From: a virus
Reading direction: 5' to 3' (one strand)
Length of the DNA: 22,234 nt
IMG/VR virus record: IMGVR_UViG_3300046004_002309
Span: 1-22,234 of that record
Made by a program: the position numbers and the translations under genes. The number at the start of each line of letters is the position of its first letter. The first letter of the stretch is position 1. The notes beneath the pieces were generated by a model, which was not told where the DNA came from, did no database searches, and saw only the letters and a list, made by a program, of their open reading frames with translations. Shown here piece by piece: positions 7,371-21,445 of the stretch.

Positions 7371-7398
7371 AAAAAGGGGTGACCTTTCGGCCACCCCC
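7371..7398 (-). terminator. Rho-independent terminator after the major capsid gene
   Basis: On the leftward transcript, arms 7389-7397 and 7376-7384 form a 9-base-pair GC-rich stem (one G-U pair) closed by a GAAA tetraloop and followed by five U (7375-7371). It starts 30 bases after the capsid stop codon. Confidence 0.88.
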
Positions 7399-7427: not shown

Positions 7428-9008
7428 TTAGACGAGATTGAGCTTGTCGATGTAGATCTTGCCGAAGAATTCCGGGCGAACCACTTTCTTCGCGTAACGT
7501 GTCATCACGCCACGACGAGGTGTGAAGTTCTGCGGATCGTACACAAGTGGTGTCATGATTAATGGAATGTATGGTGCGTACACTGCACCCGTTTCCAAGA
7601 ATTGGTTGCCACGGAAGCCCATCAACATCACGTTTTCTGTCATGTATGGGTTCTTGTATACGGTGAAACGGTTCTGGAAAGAACCAATCTTCGTTACACC
7701 GGCTGCAAATTCCATCTTGTCGCCATCGGTTCCGGCTGCGAAGCCAGGGATGGTTTCAAGAATCGTTGCAACAGTTGGTGACACGACTGCAAAGTTAGCA
7801 CCGCCACGCATCGTGAGCTGATGAATCTTGTTACTAACCTTCTGCATCTTCTGACCAAGTGTTTGGAACCAGGTCATGTTGGTCCATGCCGTTCCCGTAA
7901 AGGAACTTGCGACAAATGCACTTCCGTTCCAGACTGAACCAATTTCTGCTGACCAGAATTCTGTTGTGGTTGATGGTGCAGCGCCAATTAACATATCAAG
8001 AATTTCAAGGTCAATTTCCATTGCAACATAGTCACTTAACATTGAAGTGAGTTCTGCTTCAGCGTCCACTGAATGATATGCGTTCAAGTCTTGTGCAAGT
8101 TCTGGTGACCATACTGCCTTCAACTTACGTGTCTTGGCAACGATGGTTTCTGAACGAAGTTCCAAATCAATTTCTGGAATGTTGAGGTTTGTTGAGCCGT
8201 CACGATCTTCGAAATCGCCACGTGCTGTATCGACAGGTGCCTTTGTGAATGTAACACTGTTAAGTGTCTTCGTTACTAGTACTGATGAACTAACAATGAA
8301 TGTCACGTTAGTGCCATCATACTTGGTAAATTCTGGTAATAGTAATGCCCCAAAATCAATTACTGATCCACTTAAAGCAAATGAGCGAACTGCTAAGAAA
8401 TCAGCACTTGGTAATGCTGTTCCAGCAACCGTATATTTACTTAGACTTCCTGTTGCTACGTAATCTTGATTGTAATTTACATCGGAAAATGATGCAGATG
8501 CTGGTACAATTGCTAATGACGATGTAATTTGATCATTCAATGAATAACCAAAACGACCTGCACCATATAAACCACCCGTGTTCGTGTTACCAAATCCACC
8601 GAACGTTGACGATGCCGCGGCGCCATAAAGTGATTGTCCTGACGTTTGACCGTTTGACGTTGAACCATACTTGAAGTCCATGTAGAACACAAGTCCTGCT
8701 GGAAGGTTCATTGGTTGTACAGACACGAAGTTCTTTGCGGCAATTGAACCAAAGACCTTACGGACTAAGGGAAGTGCAACACCGGCCCAGTTTTCACCAC
8801 TGGTTCCAGCTGAGTTCGTCTTACTGTTTTCCGAGAGAAGCTGTGTTGCTTGGTTTTCAAGCATCACGGACATAGCCTGCTTTTCATAGCCCTTCAATCC
8901 TTCTAGGAGGCCTGAGCCTTCCCACTTTCCTGCTAATTTACGGGTTTGTTCGATAACGTGCTTGTGTGCACTACCCGCTTCGTTGATAAATTCTGATACA
9001 TCTGACAT
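7428..9008 (-). CDS. Major capsid protein (T4 gp23-like)
   Basis: At 526 residues it is almost the size of T4 gp23 (521). The N-terminal helix region has RKLAGKWEGSGLLEGL and MSVMLENQATQLLSE, typical of gp23 pro-proteins. T4 gp23 loses its first 65 residues to the gp21 protease after an (I/L)-x-E site; here LSE at 58-60, followed by N61, is the matching candidate. The body shows gp23-type segments such as a RKLKAVWSPELAQDL stretch, LSDYVAMEIDLEILDML, and a C-terminal FTPRRGVMTRYAKKVV. A GGAG site precedes the ATG. It follows the scaffold gene by 19 bases, the 22-23 order of T4, and ends in a strong terminator. Confidence 0.95.
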   Translation of the reverse strand: MSDVSEFINEAGSAHKHVIEQTRKLAGKWEGSGLLEGLKGYEKQAMSVMLENQATQLLSENSKTNSAGTSGENWAGVALPLVRKVFGSIAAKNFVSVQPMNLPAGLVFYMDFKYGSTSNGQTSGQSLYGAAASSTFGGFGNTNTGGLYGAGRFGYSLNDQITSSLAIVPASASFSDVNYNQDYVATGSLSKYTVAGTALPSADFLAVRSFALSGSVIDFGALLLPEFTKYDGTNVTFIVSSSVLVTKTLNSVTFTKAPVDTARGDFEDRDGSTNLNIPEIDLELRSETIVAKTRKLKAVWSPELAQDLNAYHSVDAEAELTSMLSDYVAMEIDLEILDMLIGAAPSTTTEFWSAEIGSVWNGSAFVASSFTGTAWTNMTWFQTLGQKMQKVSNKIHQLTMRGGANFAVVSPTVATILETIPGFAAGTDGDKMEFAAGVTKIGSFQNRFTVYKNPYMTENVMLMGFRGNQFLETGAVYAPYIPLIMTPLVYDPQNFTPRRGVMTRYAKKVVRPEFFGKIYIDKLNLV

Positions 9009-9027: not shown

Positions 9028-10212
9028 TTAAATGATTCCTGCAAGTTCTTGTAATCTTTTTGCTACCGTGTTTTCCACGATGACTTGCGACTTTGGAGCC
9101 GTACTTGGGACTGCCTTAGAGGCTAATCCTTCAGTAACAACTTTCTTACGTGATGCGTTGAATGTCTTCACTGCTGCAGAAAGATTTTCAACTAATGTCG
9201 TATAAACAATCTTAACTTCACGAACGGTGGTTGCACGGTCAAATGATTCAACAATGCGAACTTTCTGTTCGTTGGTTAAACTATTTTTATGGAACATTTT
9301 GTTGGTGAAGAGTAACTTTGCATTGAGTAAGTTAACTTCTTGTAAACGGCCACGGAGAATGTTCACTGCTTCTCTGTATTGTGCCATTTCGCCCTTGAGT
9401 CTCGCAAGTTTATCAGCCATTGCCGTTTTTTCATCGTGAGCAACTTTTTCATCGCCCATTTCTGCATCGTCGGCTTCAAGTTCTGCAAGAATTTCTTCAA
9501 GATCAATTTCTTCGTCATCACCTTCTTCGGCACTCATTGGTGCGTCCATCGGTACTTCACCTTCTGTCTTTGCCTTACCAATTGCGGACGAATCTGAAGG
9601 TACTTCTGAGCCTTCTTCGCCAGCTGGTTCACTTTTTGGATATTCACCCTTTTCGTCATCGGCTTCTTTGTGTGAAAGTGCGGCAATATCTTCTTCTAAT
9701 TCACGAATTACTTCGTCGAGGTCAAAATCACTTTCTGACCAATCATCGTACCAATCCGTTGAACTATCTGTGTTTGCTTCTGGTCCATGCCCAACATCTG
9801 ATGTGTCGAATGCATCTGCCGATGGTTCCTTGTTATCTGATGAACCAATTGCCGATGTATTAGCAGGGAATTCTTTTCCACCGCCAACTTTTTCACCATC
9901 CTGCCACGGCTTTTCTGATGCTACTTCTTTCTTGACATCACCACTGGCCTTTGTTGCAACTGCCTGTTTCATCGGCTCTTCAGTATCACCGTCCTTGTCC
10001 GCATCAAGAAAGTCTGGCTTTGCACTTTCTTCGACTTCATCTTCGTCGTTAGCCATATCGGCTTCGACACGAAGACGGCGTGAAATCATATCACGAATCT
10101 GCGGGGTAATTGCTTCTTCTAAAACCAATTTTGCATTTGCTACAGCAGTTTCACGAACTGCTTCTGCATCGGCAATAGCTTGTTTTAAAAGCTTGTTAGT
10201 AATCTGTGTCAT
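9028..10212 (-). CDS. Prohead core scaffold (T4 gp22-like)
   Basis: This 394-residue, very acidic protein lies just upstream of the major capsid gene, as gp22 does in T4. Such scaffolds form the prohead core and are degraded by the prohead protease. The N-terminal ~45 residues form a helix with a LEE-A site (31-34) that fits (L/I)-x-E cleavage. Residues 50-260 are low-complexity acidic sequence with repeated SSAIG-type segments and several more L-E-E / L-A-E sites. Residues 265-330 form a coiled coil, and the end (NTVAKRLQELAGII) is a typical capsid-binding tail for scaffolds. A calcium-loop-like DADKDGD motif sits at 70-76. AGGAG precedes the ATG. It is longer than T4 gp22 (269). Confidence 0.85.
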   Translation of the reverse strand: MTQITNKLLKQAIADAEAVRETAVANAKLVLEEAITPQIRDMISRRLRVEADMANDEDEVEESAKPDFLDADKDGDTEEPMKQAVATKASGDVKKEVASEKPWQDGEKVGGGKEFPANTSAIGSSDNKEPSADAFDTSDVGHGPEANTDSSTDWYDDWSESDFDLDEVIRELEEDIAALSHKEADDEKGEYPKSEPAGEEGSEVPSDSSAIGKAKTEGEVPMDAPMSAEEGDDEEIDLEEILAELEADDAEMGDEKVAHDEKTAMADKLARLKGEMAQYREAVNILRGRLQEVNLLNAKLLFTNKMFHKNSLTNEQKVRIVESFDRATTVREVKIVYTTLVENLSAAVKTFNASRKKVVTEGLASKAVPSTAPKSQVIVENTVAKRLQELAGII

Positions 10213-10333
10213 AAAATTAAACTCCTGAAAGGAATAAAACAGATATTTTATCTGTTATTGAATATTAAATTTACCACCAATATTAGAGATTAGTGTTTAC
10301 TATTATATAAATATAATGTTTTTTTCTAAAACG
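10213..10333 (-). promoter_or_regulatory. Leader of the scaffold-capsid unit with promoter box and hairpin
   Basis: This 121-base gap precedes the scaffold gene. A full TATTTATA box (sense) is at 10306-10313, 93 bases before the start, giving a longer leader than at other genes. Within the leader, 10238-10256 forms a perfect 8-base-pair hairpin (AACAGATA / TATCTGTT, 3-base loop). It lies 25 bases before the scaffold ATG, close to the AGGAG site, and might influence translation. A role as a weak terminator for the bS21 transcript is possible but the stem is AT-rich. Confidence 0.4.
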
Positions 10334-10549
10334 TTAATTATCGTATTGTTTTTGTCGTGCAACTCTTTTTTCTTCACGCTTTTTACGACGAAATGCTTCT
10401 TGCCGTTTGAATATTTTCTTTTTTGATGGTTTTAGATAGTGTTCTCTATTACGAAGTTCCTGCAATAGTTCTGATTTCTTCACCATCTTAGTAAATACTT
10501 TTAACGCTTTGTTGAGTTCATCTTTCCCATCTTTTACAATAACTTCCAT
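10334..10549 (-). CDS. rpsU: Ribosomal protein bS21 homologue
   Basis: This 71-residue, strongly basic protein has the bS21 layout: a short beta start (MEVIVKDG), then a helix with the conserved ALKVF...K core, ELRNREHYLKPSKKK around residues 31-45, which matches the family's R-x-R-E-x-Y-x-K-P signature, and a long Arg/Lys helix to the end. bS21 sits near the 3' end of 16S rRNA in the small subunit and affects initiation by the anti-Shine-Dalgarno region. Phage-encoded bS21 genes are known from metagenomes and some cultured phages. A phage copy could replace the host protein and favour phage mRNA. A GGAGG site precedes the ATG, so the gene itself is well set for SD-led translation. It lies inside the prohead block between the HAD gene and the scaffold gene. 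Confidence 0.9.
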   Translation of the reverse strand: MEVIVKDGKDELNKALKVFTKMVKKSELLQELRNREHYLKPSKKKIFKRQEAFRRKKREEKRVARQKQYDN

Positions 10550-10559
10550 ACTGCCTCCA

Positions 10560-11246
10560 TTAACTGTTTTGTTTTGGAACTAATCGTCCATTTTGTGATG
10601 TGTGTGTTACTTTTTTATTCTTGCCGTACCGACCAAATCCTAAATAATCTAGTCCCAATTGCTGTGCTTGTTTTGCAATTTCACCGTCTTCTGCGGCTTG
10701 TTTTGTTGCAATCGGGGCAGACGGCGTGGTTGATGGTTTATCTGGTTCAGGATGTTCTTTTGCTTGATGTACTAGTATTTTTGCATCGGGAAATTCCGTT
10801 CTCAATGCTTTTACTGCTTGTACATTTTTCGGAGAATCATCAATAAAGGCAACCTTATCATACCCATCCTTCATATGTTTTCTAATATATGCCGCTTTCT
10901 TTTCTGGATTTGCATCACCCAATGCCGCAATAGATACCCCAGATGTAATTCCGTGCATCTTTAAAAATTGTGCAACGGGACGAGTATGACCTCGTGCGGT
11001 TAATACAACAATTTTATCCGCTCTACCAACTGCTTGTTGTAATAATTTGACAAATCGTTGGATTGGTTTTGGGTTAATTAATTTATCAAATTCGGAGAAA
11101 TCAAATTGGTCACCCGGCTGTTCATCGTATACAGCAAATGCAGCGGGGTCCATTTCAATTCGGTTTCCCTTACGAGTAAGAAAGATTTTAGAGTCAGTTT
11201 GTGCCAATGTGTCATCAAAATCACTGACGAATAATGTTTTACCCAT
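10560..11246 (-). CDS. HAD-superfamily phosphatase with phage C-terminal tag
   Basis: This 228-residue protein has all main HAD motifs: motif I DFDDT at 9-13 (nucleophile D9, general acid D11), motif II VLTARG with T83, a lysine-rich region near 116-127 that can supply motif III, and motif IV FIDDSPKN with D136/D137. The small cap fits a nucleotide or polynucleotide 3'-phosphatase type, like the phosphatase half of T4 PseT, but no kinase domain is present. Residues 145-190 are a Pro/Ala linker. The C-terminus (LDYLGFGRYGKN followed by VTH at 213-215) resembles a short tag I recall from prohead-region proteins of other phages. It is unclear whether it acts on nucleic acid ends, nucleotides or protein. 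It sits 3 bases from the DUF3008-like gene and 10 bases from bS21. Confidence 0.8.
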   Translation of the reverse strand: MGKTLFVSDFDDTLAQTDSKIFLTRKGNRIEMDPAAFAVYDEQPGDQFDFSEFDKLINPKPIQRFVKLLQQAVGRADKIVVLTARGHTRPVAQFLKMHGITSGVSIAALGDANPEKKAAYIRKHMKDGYDKVAFIDDSPKNVQAVKALRTEFPDAKILVHQAKEHPEPDKPSTTPSAPIATKQAAEDGEIAKQAQQLGLDYLGFGRYGKNKKVTHTSQNGRLVPKQNS

Positions 11247-11249
11247 AGA

Positions 11250-11645
11250 TTAGTAGGTTAAAACTTTATAAGATACGGCAACCATCTCATTTAATGAACT
11301 TTGTAATAATGTATTTTTATTTTGTTCATTTAACTTATTCATCACAGTTACCAACATTTGTGCCGTAAATACATCAACGGTTTGCCCTTTTACTTGTCCC
11401 GAAATTTTTGTCGTTGCAATTTCTCGTAATGTTTCTTCGGTGTATGCGGGGGAATGCAGAATGGTATGCAATATTTCTTTGAGATTGTCATGTGGTGTAG
11501 ATGCATATTTTTTTGCATCTGCGGGTGATATACTCTTTGCAATTTTTTTAATTTGTGCACTTACTTTGCCAGCAGGTATTTTTCCCGTTTGGTAGGCATG
11601 TACAATGCCAAATAGTCGTTGTTGAGATTTGCTGGTTGACGGCAT
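11250..11645 (-). CDS. DUF3008-like prohead-region protein
   Basis: Residues 1-55 match the pattern I know as DUF3008: SKSQQRLFGIVHAYQTGK, then VSAQIKKIAKSIS and a KKYASTPHDNL segment. This family occurs in phages and some bacteria and has no known biochemical role. The rest (60-131) is helical and ends in SSLNEMVAVSYKVLTY, where LNE (118-120) fits a prohead-protease site. The gene lies one base after the prohead protease stop, so it is almost certainly co-translated with it. This suggests a capsid-assembly or internal-head role. Confidence 0.7.
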   Translation of the reverse strand: MPSTSKSQQRLFGIVHAYQTGKIPAGKVSAQIKKIAKSISPADAKKYASTPHDNLKEILHTILHSPAYTEETLREIATTKISGQVKGQTVDVFTAQMLVTVMNKLNEQNKNTLLQSSLNEMVAVSYKVLTY

Positions 11646-11646
11646 G

Positions 11647-12231
11647 TTATTTCACTTCACTTAAAAAGTCGTGAACTAATTTATTAATATTGTCATATGG
11701 TGCCGCAACTTGCTGCATCACATTTTCGGTGATGAATGCACCAATTGTTGATGGATTACTCACAATATCAAAACAAATTAAAGCAAAGTCTTCTTGGACT
11801 TCTACCGTATTTTCACTCATTTGTTTGACTGAACCCATACCACGGGAACTGACGCCGAGTTTTATATTATTACGAATTAATTCCCGAACGATATTTCCCG
11901 TTGGAGTCGTCAAAATTTCAATATCACCACGAACGTCATCACCGTCCGTCCATAGTCCTACAATGTTACAACAGACATTTTTCAGATTGACTACGGGACT
12001 TTCTGGGTGATCTAATTCACCCAGTGCCCGTCGTTGATTAACAAAATTTTGTTTATATACACTTGCTTCACGCATTAAAATTTCTTTAGGATAGACTCGT
12101 CCATTTTGATTTTTTGCGTTTGCTCGTTGTAATACGACATTACGAAGAACCAGTGGTTTATTACTGTCCAACGCTTCCGTTAAAAGTTCTTTATTATAAT
12201 GAAGCTCTGTGTATTCACATAGTAATGCCAT
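11647..12231 (-). CDS. Prohead maturation protease (T4 gp21-like)
   Basis: This 194-residue serine protease shows the gp21 catalytic pattern: His75 in GELDHPE, a Ser128/Ser129 pair in LGVSSRG, and Asp155 in ICFDIVSNPS. The spacing is close to the known triad of T4 gp21. The N-terminal region (LVLRNVVLQRANAKNQNGRV followed by YPKEIL) is also typical. In T4-like phages this enzyme is built into the prohead, cleaves scaffold, capsid protein and internal proteins after (L/I)-x-E, then destroys itself. It lies between two small head genes and upstream of the scaffold, as 21 precedes 22 and 23 in T4. Confidence 0.93.
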   Translation of the reverse strand: MALLCEYTELHYNKELLTEALDSNKPLVLRNVVLQRANAKNQNGRVYPKEILMREASVYKQNFVNQRRALGELDHPESPVVNLKNVCCNIVGLWTDGDDVRGDIEILTTPTGNIVRELIRNNIKLGVSSRGMGSVKQMSENTVEVQEDFALICFDIVSNPSTIGAFITENVMQQVAAPYDNINKLVHDFLSEVK

Positions 12232-12232
12232 A

Positions 12233-12739
12233 TTAATTTCTCATATCGCGCAAACGTGCCGCTAGTTCAGTAAGTTTACCTTCTAATTTTACCATCTGAG
12301 TCGTGGTGCGTTTCCATAACTTGTCATTGGACAACCCCGATTCTTTCTTTAATCGGCTGTTCATTTTTAAGGCCCGTTCCACTAACTTTAATTGTTTATT
12401 TAATTCAGACATTGCTTGACCAATTTTTTGATGGGGTTGGCGAGTTGCATCATTACGATACGAATAATAATTCTCTTGAAGAGTTTTTACACCTTCTTGA
12501 ATTGCAGCAAATCGTTCTTGGAGTTTATCACCTGGCTTGGTGTCTTCTGCACCACGTTTAGTTAACGAATATCCAATAGATTTTGCCATTTGTTTGATAC
12601 GATTTGTATTACCGTGCTTATCCCCGACAAATGCATTCGGTGTTAAATATCCCGCCACATTGGCCGTGGTGCTTATTTCGTTTAATGCCTCACGGATGCA
12701 TTTTCGAATGATTTCACGCAATCTTTCTTCAGTATTCAT
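12233..12739 (-). CDS. Helical prohead-region protein with a STTANVAGY motif
   Basis: This 168-residue basic protein begins with an amphipathic helix (EERLREIIRKCIREALNE) followed by ISTTANVAGYLTPNAF, a short segment I recall from many phage proteins near the portal and protease. The LNE at 19-21 just before that segment fits cleavage by the gp21-type protease, like the capsid-targeting leaders of T4 internal proteins. The remainder (70-168) is coiled coil. One base separates it from the protease gene. It may be an internal head protein or core component. Function is unproven. Confidence 0.7.
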   Translation of the reverse strand: MNTEERLREIIRKCIREALNEISTTANVAGYLTPNAFVGDKHGNTNRIKQMAKSIGYSLTKRGAEDTKPGDKLQERFAAIQEGVKTLQENYYSYRNDATRQPHQKIGQAMSELNKQLKLVERALKMNSRLKKESGLSNDKLWKRTTTQMVKLEGKLTELAARLRDMRN

Positions 12740-13683: not shown

Positions 13684-15567
13684 TTAATCCTCTACTTTAT
13701 CGTCAGATGACAACTGTTCTACGATAATTTGTTTGTATTTACTGGTATTTTTGATTTGTAATTTATCTAAGAAATGTTTTGCTTCTAACGATAAGGTAGA
13801 ACGTTTATAACGTTTGGTATTTTCTTTATGTCCTAATGGGTCACGGCCAAGCGGATGTGCGTCAGTGCCAAATTTTAATCCTTCTCTTGGACGACCACCT
13901 TTATTTTTCATAAGTGCTTCTTCCAACTCTTCATCTACTTCTTCGTCACCTTCTAACGTGTCAAGACTCTGTAATATTTGGTCCACATCGTCTATTTGCG
14001 TTTCTTGGTCATCCGCACTAGCGTCACCTTCCGGTGGAGCTTCCCCTTCTGGCGGCGCCCCTCCTTCTGGCGGCATTCCACCCATTGGCGGTTCTTGCGG
14101 TTGTGCCATTGCTTGTTGTTCTTGTTGACGTTTTACATCTTCGATAATTTTCTTCCGTTCTTCAGCAATTTCATCATCTGATAATTCAAGAATGTGATTG
14201 TATACCCAATCTTGTGACAGTAGAATTGTTTGTCCGCCTGTCATTTGTTGCGCTAATCCAAACTTTTCTTTCCAGATATTAATTTTTTCTTGTTCGTATA
14301 ACGTAGAAGGATTCGTTAACGATAATTCAAAATTGACAAGTTTTTCATCTGTAAATCCTTGAACATACAAATGAATGATGGCAATCTTGGTGAGTTCCGA
14401 TATCATAATGCGTTGAATGCGCTCGATGGTTCGTGCAAATCGCACATCTTGTGCTGCCAAGGTTGCTTTTCCGTTAATATCTTCTTCGTATCCAATAAAG
14501 GACTTGGGAACTTTAAATGCTGCAAGTAATTTTTTACGGAGATATTCAATGTCTTCAATTGCGTTAAATTGTAGACCCTGCATGGTTTCAATTTCCGTTC
14601 CACTATCCTTCCCACGTACTGGGAGATAGAAATCTTCGGTGATATTCATCATGTTATACCGGAGATTATAATCACCCGTTTTTGGGTCCACCAATGGTGT
14701 TTTCTTAGACCGGTCAATGATACGATTCATATATGTATCAACTTCGGCAGGTGGAATATTACCAATATCAATTTTAAATTTTCGTTTGTCGGGTGCTCTC
14801 ATGATACGATGAATTAACATTGCATCTTCCATCAATTGTAATTGCTTCCATGTTCTCCGACCACCTTCAATCATGGCTTTTCCATATGGAAGGAAGTTTG
14901 TATCTGACAATAAACGAAAATGTGCAATTTCATAGTTATCAAAATCTTTTTTGCCTAATTGCAAGAAGTCAGTGTCAATGGAAAATCTTACGGAGAATGG
15001 ATTACCCGGTTGTTCACCTTCTACACGAATAGTTTCATAGACAGATAATGGAACGGCATTAACGATACCATATTCTGGGTCAATGTCGAGATATAAAAAT
15101 AAATCTCCATATTTTGCCATGTTTCGAACCCACGGCCAGAGATTAAATTCTACGTTGAGAATATCGTAAAATAAATTGTGGAGAATTTCTTGAACTTGAG
15201 TATCATCGGTTTTAATCGAGAGAATACGGTCAAATTCATCTTTTACGGTACTTTCATCTGCATAAATGTCAAGCACTGACGCAATAATAGGATCATTGTC
15301 CATCATGTCATAATCGCGGAACAACTGTAATCGTGCTCCTTGAAAAGATGCGGCTGCTTCATATCGTCCGTGTGATGACCCATACCCACCAGTGGCAGAA
15401 TTATATACACGATGATACCGATCAACACCTCGTCTGTTAACAAACGATTGAATTTGATCCGTATCTGCAATACGAAGTTTTTTTCCACCCACATTTCGTA
15501 CAATTGTGTTCGTGGAAAAAAGTTTCTTTAGTCTACCAAAAATTCCATTGTTACTAGTATCTGCCAT
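13684..15567 (-). CDS. Portal protein (T4 gp20-like)
   Basis: This 627-residue protein forms the dodecameric ring at the packaging vertex. The region QLFRDYDMMDNDPIIASVLDIYADE (written here in two parts: residues ~82-94 and 95-106) and the following VEFNLWPWVRNMAKYGD are typical of gp20-type portals, as is the LAAFKVPKSFIGYEED segment near residue 345. The core ends around 470. A Pro/Gly/Glu-rich stretch of repeated PPEG units follows (about 490-520), then an acidic stretch, an LEE-A site near 550, and a basic tail (GGRPREGLKFGTDAHPLG onwards). This tail is absent from T4 gp20 (524 residues). GAGGAG precedes the ATG. Confidence 0.92.
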   Translation of the reverse strand: MADTSNNGIFGRLKKLFSTNTIVRNVGGKKLRIADTDQIQSFVNRRGVDRYHRVYNSATGGYGSSHGRYEAAASFQGARLQLFRDYDMMDNDPIIASVLDIYADESTVKDEFDRILSIKTDDTQVQEILHNLFYDILNVEFNLWPWVRNMAKYGDLFLYLDIDPEYGIVNAVPLSVYETIRVEGEQPGNPFSVRFSIDTDFLQLGKKDFDNYEIAHFRLLSDTNFLPYGKAMIEGGRRTWKQLQLMEDAMLIHRIMRAPDKRKFKIDIGNIPPAEVDTYMNRIIDRSKKTPLVDPKTGDYNLRYNMMNITEDFYLPVRGKDSGTEIETMQGLQFNAIEDIEYLRKKLLAAFKVPKSFIGYEEDINGKATLAAQDVRFARTIERIQRIMISELTKIAIIHLYVQGFTDEKLVNFELSLTNPSTLYEQEKINIWKEKFGLAQQMTGGQTILLSQDWVYNHILELSDDEIAEERKKIIEDVKRQQEQQAMAQPQEPPMGGMPPEGGAPPEGEAPPEGDASADDQETQIDDVDQILQSLDTLEGDEEVDEELEEALMKNKGGRPREGLKFGTDAHPLGRDPLGHKENTKRYKRSTLSLEAKHFLDKLQIKNTSKYKQIIVEQLSSDDKVED

Positions 15568-16671: not shown

Positions 16672-17286
16672 TTATATTTTCATCTGTTGTTCAATGTAGA
16701 ACCCTGCCAACGGACCTCTTTTAATTGTCTTAGGACCATTACATATCTTCCAAGCAAGAGTACTGTAATTCCAACCATGTTGCTCACACACAGATTTAAA
16801 ATTAACTGCATTTACCATTAAGGTTTCTCCAGAAGCAGTAATAATTTTATAAATATATTTTTCATGTTTTGACTTTGCACCGCTATGACCACCCGCTACA
16901 TGCCATTCTCTAACCCTTCCCTGTTCTTTCAACTTATCCCTAAAAGATTTTGCGCCAATTTTACCTGCCATAGATTGATGGGTTTTTAGTTCTTCCCTAG
17001 TCAATCCAGACAAATAATGTTTACCACCCACGCACATATTATACGAATTTTCATCTTTTACTACATCTTCATTTACATATTTCTTTTCAAGTTCCCACAA
17101 TTCTGGACTAGAGTTTGCTTCATCCAATATTTCTTTTATAAAATTTTCACGACCATATTTACGAATAGCGTTTTTAATCCACAATCCGCTACCCATATAT
17201 CCGTCATTTACATTGTCTGTAGAGTGTCGGCCAATATAATATTTGTCATTTATAGTGTTAGTAATTTTATAAATAATGTGTTTCAT
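16672..17286 (-). CDS. GIY-YIG homing endonuclease, free-standing
   Basis: This 204-residue protein has the GIY-YIG nuclease fold at its N-terminus: IIYKITN (4-10), KYYIGRH (15-21), DGYMGSG (28-34) and AIRKYGRENF (40-49), then a Glu-containing ELEKKYV helix and YNMCVGG. This is the variant common in selfish endonucleases of T4-like phages. The C-terminal region (GETLMVNAV...SVCEQHGWNYSTL...ICNG) looks like a NUMOD-type helix-turn-helix DNA-binding module. I chose the ATG at 17286 because it overlaps the upstream stop codon (TAATG) and begins the domain. A longer frame to 17343 would add 19 residues not needed by the fold. No intron ends are visible, so it is a stand-alone gene that spreads by cutting related genomes lacking it. 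Confidence 0.9.
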   Translation of the reverse strand: MKHIIYKITNTINDKYYIGRHSTDNVNDGYMGSGLWIKNAIRKYGRENFIKEILDEANSSPELWELEKKYVNEDVVKDENSYNMCVGGKHYLSGLTREELKTHQSMAGKIGAKSFRDKLKEQGRVREWHVAGGHSGAKSKHEKYIYKIITASGETLMVNAVNFKSVCEQHGWNYSTLAWKICNGPKTIKRGPLAGFYIEQQMKI

Positions 17287-18302
17287 TACCAAGCTCTGCA
17301 CGACCAATATCTTGCACTGGTTCTGTCCTTTGCAGTGTGACATTTATGTCGTGCCCGAAAACTTTTACGACGGGCAGGATTGCTCTTTTTAATTCTCATG
17401 TTTGGGTCACCAAAATTTACTTTCTTGACATTTCCAGTACTTGGATCTTTTACAAACACTTTGAATTTTGCTACATCGCCCCGCATTGGTTTACCTAATG
17501 AAACTTTACGGCCTTGATATTCTGCTTCCGTAAGCACATTTGCATGTTCTAAAATATATTCTTTGAGACACGCCGAACAATATTCATCATCGTTAAGTTC
17601 GTCAACATTTTCGTCGATAGGAACGCAATTAGGAACCATCTTACCACCTTTATCTTTCATTCCTACTTGTTTGTATCCTTCCCAACATGCTTCATTTAAT
17701 CCCACGGATGGGTCAGTAAACCGTCCCGTTAATGTTTTACTTGGGTCGGCTTTTGGATTAGACACCGCATCATATCTATCGAAGTCTGGTTGAGGTGCCC
17801 CAAAGGTATCTCCAGTATACTCACACAATCCATTTGACTCACCTTCATTACATTTTCTCCAACGACCACCTTTACTTTTATAGTTTTTTGCGGCCCATCC
17901 ATTTGCATAAGCAGATGGATACACATCAAATTTAGATTTTGCCGCAGATTTTGATGCTGACCATTTACCTGGGTCAGTTGGGCAATTCTTTTCTAAAAAT
18001 AAATTTAATCGTTCTTCTATGTTCATATTTTCCCTTGTTGGTTTAGTAGAAACATATATTGGTTTTTTACCCTGCCCCTTACTATCTTTTCCACCTCTAC
18101 CTGCTTTATTTTGTGCTGCTCGTTTTCGGTTAGTTGCACTTTCTTTTTCTTTTTTACTCATGCTGGCTGCTTTTGCGGCAGGAACACATTTTGCATAACC
18201 TTTCTTTTCTCCCGACGTTCCGCAGGGTGGGTGTTTACCATCGACTTTTTTGCCAATGTTTACCCATTTTTCTTTAAACCACTTATCTAAATCTTCGTCC
18301 AT
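17286..18302 (-). CDS. Mosaic phage protein of several short modules, Cys-containing
   Basis: This 338-residue basic protein looks assembled from short modules. Residues 6-62 have WFKEKWVNIG, CGTSGEKKGYAKCVPAAKA and a Lys/Arg tail. Residues 107-139 have CPTDPGKWSASKSAAKSKFD and VYPSAYANGWAAKNYK. Residues 206-227 have CWEGYKQVGMKDKGGKMVPN followed by CVP. Residues 267-338 have VSLGKPMRGDVAKFKVFVKD, a VNFGDPNMRIKK segment, RKSFRARHKC and the end ARYWSCRAW. I recall each from other phage proteins, alone or in other combinations (DUF5872 and DUF6321 come to mind, unverified). LNE (202-204) and LTE (257-259) sites lie between modules. A YCSACL pair (242, 245) and other cysteines could bind metal. 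The role is unknown; a head-internal or capsid-associated protein is plausible. Confidence 0.75.
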   Translation of the reverse strand: MDEDLDKWFKEKWVNIGKKVDGKHPPCGTSGEKKGYAKCVPAAKAASMSKKEKESATNRKRAAQNKAGRGGKDSKGQGKKPIYVSTKPTRENMNIEERLNLFLEKNCPTDPGKWSASKSAAKSKFDVYPSAYANGWAAKNYKSKGGRWRKCNEGESNGLCEYTGDTFGAPQPDFDRYDAVSNPKADPSKTLTGRFTDPSVGLNEACWEGYKQVGMKDKGGKMVPNCVPIDENVDELNDDEYCSACLKEYILEHANVLTEAEYQGRKVSLGKPMRGDVAKFKVFVKDPSTGNVKKVNFGDPNMRIKKSNPARRKSFRARHKCHTAKDRTSARYWSCRAW

Positions 18303-19511: not shown

Positions 19512-19793
19512 TTATTCTCCGCCTTTTAAGGCTATGCTGGATGCCGATGCCCAGAGGTATGATTCCCAATCTGCACCGTGTTTTTTCTTGAATTTTGCTA
19601 CCACTTTTTTATTTTTTTTCATTTTATTACCGATATCTTTTCTGTTTTCTATTTGTGAATCGGTCATTTCTCGACGAGGAGGAGATTTTCTATTATACGG
19701 CTCTGGTACGGATTTTTCGTCCAACTCCTCCATTTCGGCAAAGTATTTATATAATTCTTCTTCAATTATTGCTTCCAATTGACTACGTTTCAT
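19512..19793 (-). CDS. Small basic phage protein following the terminase gene
   Basis: This 93-residue protein has an acidic N-terminal helix (about 1-27) and a basic C-terminal region with MTDSQIENRKDIGNKMKKN followed by KKKHGADWESYLWASAS. I recall this WESYLWA-type pattern from other phage small proteins but know no function. GGAG precedes the ATG, and a TATTTATA box lies 31 bases upstream. It follows the large terminase by 65 bases. A small-terminase role cannot be excluded, but there is no clear DNA-binding motif and size and sequence do not resemble T4 gp16. Confidence 0.65.
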   Translation of the reverse strand: MKRSQLEAIIEEELYKYFAEMEELDEKSVPEPYNRKSPPRREMTDSQIENRKDIGNKMKKNKKVVAKFKKKHGADWESYLWASASSIALKGGE

Positions 19794-19858: not shown

Positions 19859-21445
19859 TTATCCAATCAACCATCGAATATCTTCCGTTTCCGTATTATT
19901 ACCGACTTGCATTTGATATGGGTCAACTGTTAAATTATTTGGTAAATTACCACGTTTCATGAATGGTGTACTAGAATAATCAGTATGTGTGAGTGCTAAT
20001 TTGGTTAATTCAATACCTTGCTGTCGTAATCGCAATGCAGTATCACGCACCCACAATCCAATACCTAATGCCATGACCAAATCGTCATTGTATCCACTTA
20101 ATGCTTCAGCGCGTCCGTTTTTCCAAATGAATGTTTCTAATTCTGCTAACGTGCGTGAAGATCGAATCGTAATTGACGTTTCTCGCATATATTCTTCTAA
20201 TTTGGCAATGATTAATGGTCGAGTACGTTGAGAAATGACAAATCCTGCCACCAAATTACGTTCACTCTTATAGGATGACTGATGTTCTACGTCGATATAC
20301 TGCATATCTTTGGACATATAGAATAAATTTCGATATCCACGGTCAATTACTTGCTGTACCGAACTCCATCCAATTGAGCTGTTGTCTGGAATCAATAATG
20401 CGTCATTATATTCTGTTGCCAGTGATACCATAAGGTTACCAAACTCTTTGGTGGGAATTTTACCCTTATATTCTGCTACTTGAATAGAACGTTCTGCGTC
20501 AATAATATGAATGGTGGAATAATCCTCACCATCACCTCTTGCAACGTCTGCGGCGGCAATATAGGTTCTACCCGCATCAGGATATTCCCATATCCACAGA
20601 TTTCCGTCAAATCCTTGTTTGGAAATGGGTTCGGTGACATAGGTTTTCTTATAAAACTCTAATATTTGTGGATTGACCACCGTATTACCGGAGAAAATAA
20701 AGGATGCATCATGTTCTTGTGAGGATTGCATCTCACCCATCATTTCTGTTTGACGGTCACGCCACGCTTGGTCACGTTCTGGATGAACTTTCCAATCTAA
20801 TAGAATGGGATTGAAACTATTTGACTTAGTTTCTGCTTGTTGCCACATTTTATGAAAGAAATTACCCACGCCGTTCGGCGTTGATAGTAATATGGCTTTA
20901 CCACCCGTAGATAGGGTAGACGATGCGGCAGTCCAAATAATATCGGCGTCATCAATGAACGCAGCTTCGTCCAGAATCAATAAGGATAGTGCTTCAGAAC
21001 GACCCGCATCCTTACTACTTGCTACGGCCTTAATTTGTGACCCATTGGCAAATTGCAATGACAATTTATTATCGGTGGTACACACGCCTCGTAACCATAC
21101 GGGTAAATTTGCGTGCATAAATCGTACTTTGGTGACAAGATTCTTTGCTGTTTCTTGTTTGGTAGCAATAACAAGAATGTTTTTGTCACGATGAAATAAT
21201 AATAACCATAGTGCATATCCGGCAACCAATGTAGAAATACCAATCTGTCTACCCTTTAAGACAATATTATTATCGTGGTCGTCAAAATCACGAATGGCAT
21301 CTTTCTGATACTTGTATAACTCAAATAATACCTTTCCCCGAATAGGATGTTGGATATATGAGTATTTACTGAGAAAGTATTCTGGACTTACCGCACATTT
21401 TTTGTATTCTTGTTTGATAAGGTCTTTTAAATTTGGCTGCGTCAT
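19859..21445 (-). CDS. Terminase large subunit (T4 gp17-like)
   Basis: This 528-residue DNA-packaging motor has an ATPase and a nuclease domain. The Walker A-like segment is LKGRQIGIST (63-72), the deviant form seen in terminases. Walker B is LLILDEAAF (155-163, D159/E160), and motif C is LLSTPNG (186-192). The nuclease acids are D300 in AAADVARGDGEDYS, D354 in LIPDNSSIGW at the second acidic position (Glu in T4 gp17), and D454/D455 in GYNDDLVMALG. These sites fit a headful-type terminase that cuts concatemers and pumps DNA through the portal. It is shorter than T4 gp17 (610), lacking part of the N- and C-terminal extensions. It lies six bases after the membrane coiled-coil gene. No small subunit was identified. 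Confidence 0.95.
   Translation of the reverse strand: MTQPNLKDLIKQEYKKCAVSPEYFLSKYSYIQHPIRGKVLFELYKYQKDAIRDFDDHDNNIVLKGRQIGISTLVAGYALWLLLFHRDKNILVIATKQETAKNLVTKVRFMHANLPVWLRGVCTTDNKLSLQFANGSQIKAVASSKDAGRSEALSLLILDEAAFIDDADIIWTAASSTLSTGGKAILLSTPNGVGNFFHKMWQQAETKSNSFNPILLDWKVHPERDQAWRDRQTEMMGEMQSSQEHDASFIFSGNTVVNPQILEFYKKTYVTEPISKQGFDGNLWIWEYPDAGRTYIAAADVARGDGEDYSTIHIIDAERSIQVAEYKGKIPTKEFGNLMVSLATEYNDALLIPDNSSIGWSSVQQVIDRGYRNLFYMSKDMQYIDVEHQSSYKSERNLVAGFVISQRTRPLIIAKLEEYMRETSITIRSSRTLAELETFIWKNGRAEALSGYNDDLVMALGIGLWVRDTALRLRQQGIELTKLALTHTDYSSTPFMKRGNLPNNLTVDPYQMQVGNNTETEDIRWLIG

Follow-up and report, generated by a model that had tools for sequence, protein, structure and literature searches.

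The ribosomal protein bS21, to our knowledge the commonest ribosomal protein encoded by viruses, adjoins the anti-Shine-Dalgarno (anti-SD) sequence. It is a late-joining protein of the 30S subunit that is exchangeable and can dissociate (PMC9976891). In the phages described by Chen et al. 2022, the bS21 gene adjoins the terminase, portal, protease, and capsid genes, and a late takeover of the ribosome was proposed (PMC9723584). Across 900 published phages with bS21, any nearby prohead protease and capsid genes generally lie 2-4 genes off, and an aromatic residue at position 54 of bS21 helps block the anti-SD (PMC9723584). Furthermore, Mizuno et al. 2019 reported that bS21 of Pelagibacter phage HTVC008M entered E. 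coli 70S ribosomes, which translated poorly in vitro (PMC6375957). The location of the gene, its late timing, and the idea of ribosome takeover are already published (PMC9723584). The present locus differs in being co-directional, in belonging to an SD-using clade, and in its evidence of long vertical inheritance.

We analysed a stretch of 22,234 bases (the window), which is an entire IMG/VR virus record and probably a piece of a larger genome. It carries a T4-like head, neck, and tail cluster with terminase, portal gp20, prohead protease gp21, capsid gp23, neck, and sheath genes, and all main genes lie on the minus strand. The bS21 open reading frame occupies exactly the interval given in Table 1, on the same strand. 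An earlier note made from the window had placed this gene in the capsid cluster, and it does lie there, shortly before the scaffold and gp23-type capsid genes and in the same direction. The note's finer placement, between a HAD phosphatase and the scaffold gene, holds in the window, but the HAD-like neighbour is variable and was undetected at the equivalent place in many relatives, whereas the scaffold gene is the constant downstream neighbour of bS21. The HAD-like protein has a DFDDT motif, with NCBIfam HAD matches below cut-off only and no Pfam match at 1e-3. For the 394-aa acidic protein no informative family match was found in Pfam, and its assignment as the prohead scaffold, from its place before gp23 and its composition, is putative.

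Table 1 Coordinates of the bS21 gene and of other features in the window.
Feature	Position	Strand	Evidence
Large terminase subunit gp17	19859-21445	minus	Pfam E 3.3e-10
GIY-YIG (SegE-like) endonuclease gene, free-standing	16672-17343	minus
Portal protein gp20	13684-15567	minus	Pfam E 8.5e-71
Prohead protease gp21 / Peptidase_S77	11647-12231	minus	Pfam E 3.3e-27
131-aa protein, PHROG 10538, variable neighbour	11250-11645	minus	PHROG
HAD-like protein, 228 aa, variable neighbour	10560-11246	minus	PHROG 415 polynucleotide kinase E 1.2e-8
bS21 ribosome-binding site GGAGG, 4 nt spacing	10550-10562	minus	predicted anti-SD pairing
bS21 (rpsU) gene, 71 aa, basic C-terminal tail	10334-10549	minus	profile matches and structure model
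Intergenic leader upstream of scaffold gene	10210-10333	minus	AT-rich box, two hairpins, and AGGAG site
AT-rich box of leader, putatively promoter-like	about 10317-10299	minus
Hairpin 1 of leader	10295-10275	minus
Hairpin 2 of leader	10256-10238	minus
Start codon of scaffold gene	10212-10210	minus
Putative prohead scaffold/core protein, 394 aa, acidic	9028-10212	minus	position and conservation
Major capsid protein, gp23 type	7428-9008	minus	Pfam Gp23 E 2.9e-74
Terminator-like hairpin	7375-7398	minus	10 pairs, 7 GC, then T-run

Several further features of the cluster were observed. The C-terminus of the HAD-like protein (GLDYLGFGRYGKNKKVTH.S.NGRLVP) reappears near the protease of relatives in a 207-aa protein that differs elsewhere (L005:3206-3829), which suggests a shared module. 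A similar N-terminal segment (e.g. MK..QLKDIIRE.INE) is found in several small near-protease proteins (L005:2743-3829; window 12233-12739 and 19512-19793) and is reminiscent of prohead-targeting peptides. The free-standing endonuclease gene of the window has similar counterparts between the capsid and neck genes of L015, L023, and L026, which suggests a mobile homing endonuclease. A strong, terminator-like hairpin directly follows the capsid gene. In L009 (7729-9903), the portal gene and the following gene are apparently inverted behind the neck gene, probably as an assembly chimera.

By its sequence, the open reading frame is a genuine bS21 gene. The 71-aa translation, MEVIVKDGKDELNKALKVFTKMVKKSELLQELRNREHYLKPSKKKIFKRQEAFRRKKREEKRVARQKQYDN, matches Pfam Ribosomal_S21 (PF01165) over positions 2-54 of the 55 in the profile (E 1.4e-11; 44.3 bits against a cut-off of 27) and the NCBIfam equivalog S21p (TIGR00030; 36.2 bits against 28.95), together with PHROG 21469 'ribosomal protein S21'. 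With both cut-offs passed, a pI of 10.3, and 24 Lys and Arg against 11 Asp and Glu, the complete core and basic tail read by the earlier note are confirmed. The AlphaFold model (mean pLDDT 82, pTM 0.40) has helices at 9-25, 27-37, and 43-70; the two bS21 helices, the absence of which would count against the assignment, are therefore predicted (9-25/27-37 and 43-70). Bacterial bS21 chains are the nearest solved structures. A Foldseek search of the PDB with the model, a 71-aa helical hairpin that is small for such a search, gave zero matches, so the identity of the fold rests on the sequence. Chance is excluded by the profile score together with the GGAGG site, 27 relatives of the same synteny, and the dN/dS.

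Those 27 viral relatives were obtained by bS21-seeded scans in two steps. In all of them the gene order, as far as the contig extends, is protease, variable stretch, bS21, scaffold, and capsid, the variable stretch being the 131-aa gene and/or the HAD-like gene, either of which is sometimes undetected. Since a bS21-seeded search is biased, a capsid-protein search was used instead, yielding 80 loci: 29 have bS21, about 30 that are long enough to assess lack it, and the remainder are too short. The gene is co-directional in 29 of 29 loci and nearly always directly precedes the scaffold gene. Within the capsid clade of the window, it is found at the equivalent site in all 18 assessable capsid-found loci, and its long C-terminal tail is conserved across the clade. 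On a capsid tree of 93 rows, four changes of bS21 presence or absence suffice, a number as low as which was reached in 0 of 500 shuffles. The distances of bS21 follow those of the capsid protein, with a Mantel r of 0.88 for the whole set and of 0.67 within the window clade, values reached in 0 of 500 shuffles in either case. The median dN/dS of bS21 is 0.054 (11 unsaturated pairs), and the gene is under purifying selection. Collectively, the synteny, the few changes on the tree, the distance correlation, and the low dN/dS identify bS21 as a long-standing member of the head cluster that was passed on by vertical descent. As judged from these comparisons, the window gene is the product of long vertical inheritance in a T4-like myovirus clade, not of recent acquisition from a host. 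Many related phages have no bS21 at the capsid site or altogether. One of those without any is Flavobacterium phage immuto, which is the nearest cultured relative as judged by capsid and terminase. A 75-aa open reading frame in the corresponding gap of immuto was considered as a degraded bS21 and rejected as unrelated.

The GGAGG site of the window bS21 gene has a predicted anti-SD pairing of -9.3 kcal/mol, the strongest in the window, tied with those of portal and sheath. A G-rich, SD-like site stands ahead of bS21 in nearly all relatives, and GGAG or GAGG is present at many window genes. To compare SD use, predicted anti-SD pairing at starts was set against that at in-frame internal ATGs under one gene-calling procedure. 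Strong SD sites were found at 41% of genes versus 13% of internal ATGs in a 164-kb relative, whose bS21 is 99% identical to that of the window, at 30% versus 8% in Microcystis phage Mel-JY01 (PP395634.1), and at 5% versus 18% in immuto. The window lineage and Mel-JY01 are SD-rich and immuto is SD-avoiding (L030-L038 versus L054-L061). The 164-kb relative also has 20 tRNA genes within L030 (its first 13 kb) and one in L031, 21 in all; only tRNAs for Phe, Tyr, Trp, and Cys are absent, and the phage thereby provides much of its own decoding set. The earlier note had taken the GGAG sites as marking late mRNAs as the target of the protein. This was not supported in the 164-kb relative, where strong SD sites occur at 11 of 26 late-region genes versus 35 of 87 others (Fisher p = 1), and the equal frequency takes away the backing that the note drew from its late-mRNA GGAG sites. 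Across the group, 45% of genes are SD-led in bS21 phages versus 15% in others by raw counts. A link of bS21 presence to SD use was rejected: the raw difference is large, yet not independent of the tree. The group includes the SD-poor bS21 phages L118, L130, L137, and L141, and the bS21 of L118 most closely resembles F. johnsoniae bS21 (7jil).

The suggestion of the earlier note that the sequence may point to the host was not supported. A scan of genome contigs with bS21 gave one distant bacterial match, to a Fretibacterium MAG with 52% over 50 aa, and a plasmid search gave four weak matches. No psbA gene was found in the relatives or in Mel-JY01. In ungapped register with F. johnsoniae bS21 (KPS common at 40-42), position 54 is Arg, which is nearly invariant in the window clade; a register shift of one residue gives Phe53 in the window protein and Leu in most relatives. 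The SD use of the lineage and Arg54 in place of an aromatic residue argue against a Bacteroidota host for the window phage.

The bS21 and scaffold genes are separated by a leader of roughly 120 bases, in which an AT-rich box is followed by two hairpins and the AGGAG site of the scaffold gene. In an alignment of 19 relatives, 97.4% of cells pair, and double-sided changes are found in 5 of 12 pairs versus 1.3 expected from shuffles. Among 24 relatives including a sister lineage, hairpin 2 has compensatory changes in 5 of 7 pairs, and hairpin 1 is re-formed from another stem sequence (ACACCTC/GGGGTGT). A covariance model located a single copy in each genome of the clade, and every copy precedes the scaffold gene. 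In a wider set, a stem of at least 7 pairs is present at the hairpin 2 position in 47 of 59 loci, versus about 15% in shuffles, in phages both with and without bS21 (further examples of the leader are L063:1352-1455, L111, L103, and L085). No family matching the leader was found in Rfam. The T4 late box TATAAATA has a single minus-strand copy in the window and none ahead of the scaffold gene. The leader was considered as a bS21-specific element and rejected, being common to bS21-less phages; for the same reason it is probably a separate element of the capsid mRNA, serving stability or translation behind a promoter and independent of bS21. It may represent a new RNA element in the capsid mRNAs of T4-like phages. 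Because the AT-rich box and two hairpins intervene, bS21 may end the transcription unit before it and lie outside the scaffold-capsid transcript.

On balance, we lean towards the reading that a vertically kept, genuine bS21 is made with the head proteins and enters the host 30S subunit to keep or retune initiation on phage mRNAs. The capsid-grade ribosome-binding site would give abundant synthesis together with the head proteins, at a late time suggested by the gene position. The protein would bind the host 30S subunit where bS21 normally sits, next to the 16S rRNA 3' end, and would replace or top up the host bS21, and the ribosomes would thereby stay competent for initiation on phage mRNAs during virion building. 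The family scores, helical model, clade retention, distance tracking, dN/dS, and SD strength count for this reading, as do the entry of a phage bS21 into E. coli 70S ribosomes (PMC6375957) and the in situ transcription of phage bS21 with structural genes in lakes (PMC9723584). Against it stand the roughly 5% activity in vitro of E. coli ribosomes with the tested phage bS21 (PMC6375957), the many related phages that manage without the gene, and the promoter-like box between bS21 and scaffold gene. We consider general support or retuning of initiation likelier than a switch to late mRNAs, since early and late genes carry SD sites equally often. Such a switch, in which phage bS21 yields specialised ribosomes that prefer phage late mRNAs via their SD sites, was put forward by the earlier note and by Chen et al. 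2022, the latter from co-expression (PMC9723584), and it agrees with the location of bS21 beside the anti-SD and with the GGAG/GAGG sites on many window genes. We nevertheless regard it as unlikely, given the equal SD strength of late and other genes in the 164-kb relative, the occurrence of bS21 in the SD-poor group members named above, and the want of an independent link between bS21 presence and SD use on the tree.

A little less likely again is a phage bS21 that functionally equals the host protein and only maintains its level once host synthesis is shut off. This purpose would suit a 30S protein that joins late and can be exchanged (PMC9976891), and the strong SD site and intact family core agree with it. 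Two traits, the long C-terminal tail kept throughout the clade and a sequence deeply diverged from the bacterial copies, nevertheless suggest something beyond a spare. The place of the relatives' bS21 between prohead protease and scaffold could also reflect packaging, with bS21 delivered in the virion to act at the onset of infection of the next host, as raised in PMC9723584; we hold this to be very improbable. Lowest of all we place an extraribosomal binding of bS21 to RNA, for instance to the adjacent two-hairpin leader of the scaffold-capsid mRNA. The leader is structured, conserved, and adjoins the gene, but it is equally common in phages without bS21, and L118, L120, and L141 have bS21 without clear hairpins. 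It is just as hard to credit that ribosomes bearing phage bS21 recognise this leader, which would amount to capsid-specific translation control by a phage-encoded ribosomal protein.

The window locus can be set against the known systems. Mel-JY01, which lies outside the clade of the window, is T4-like, with about 50% capsid and terminase identity to the window phage, and likewise has an annotated RpsU between the prohead protease and the scaffold/capsid genes on the same strand. Unlike that of the window, its bS21 is divergent (45% over 31 aa) with an N-terminal extension, and its bS21 and capsid genes are separated by extra genes. The uncultured phage LR756508 (484 kb), likewise outside the clade, also has a bS21 gene, some 2 kb ahead of a related capsid gene on the same strand, but the protein is divergent and the region is SD-poor (5% strong SD versus 22% control). 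The bS21 of HTVC008M is likewise a myovirus bS21, and its entry into E. coli ribosomes was seen (PMC6375957); it is reported to derive from the Pelagibacter host (PMC6375957), whereas no host source is visible for the window gene. The Bacteroidetes jumbo phages of Chen et al. 2022, with complete genomes of 293-331 kb and Bacteroidetes hosts, resemble the window in having bS21 among the terminase, portal, protease, and capsid genes (PMC9723584). In contrast, their bS21 is on the opposite strand and aromatic at position 54 (PMC9723584), whereas in the window it is co-directional, as it is at each of the 29 capsid-found bS21 loci, and has Arg at position 54. SD-poor genes are expected for a Bacteroidota host, and the window lineage instead uses SD sites strongly, as measured in the 164-kb relative. 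In the window clade, SD sites are not a mark of late genes, which argues against the simplest form of takeover. The window clade and the Bacteroidetes phages have opposite modes of initiation and the same gene position, which makes the hypothesis of mRNA selection comparable between them.
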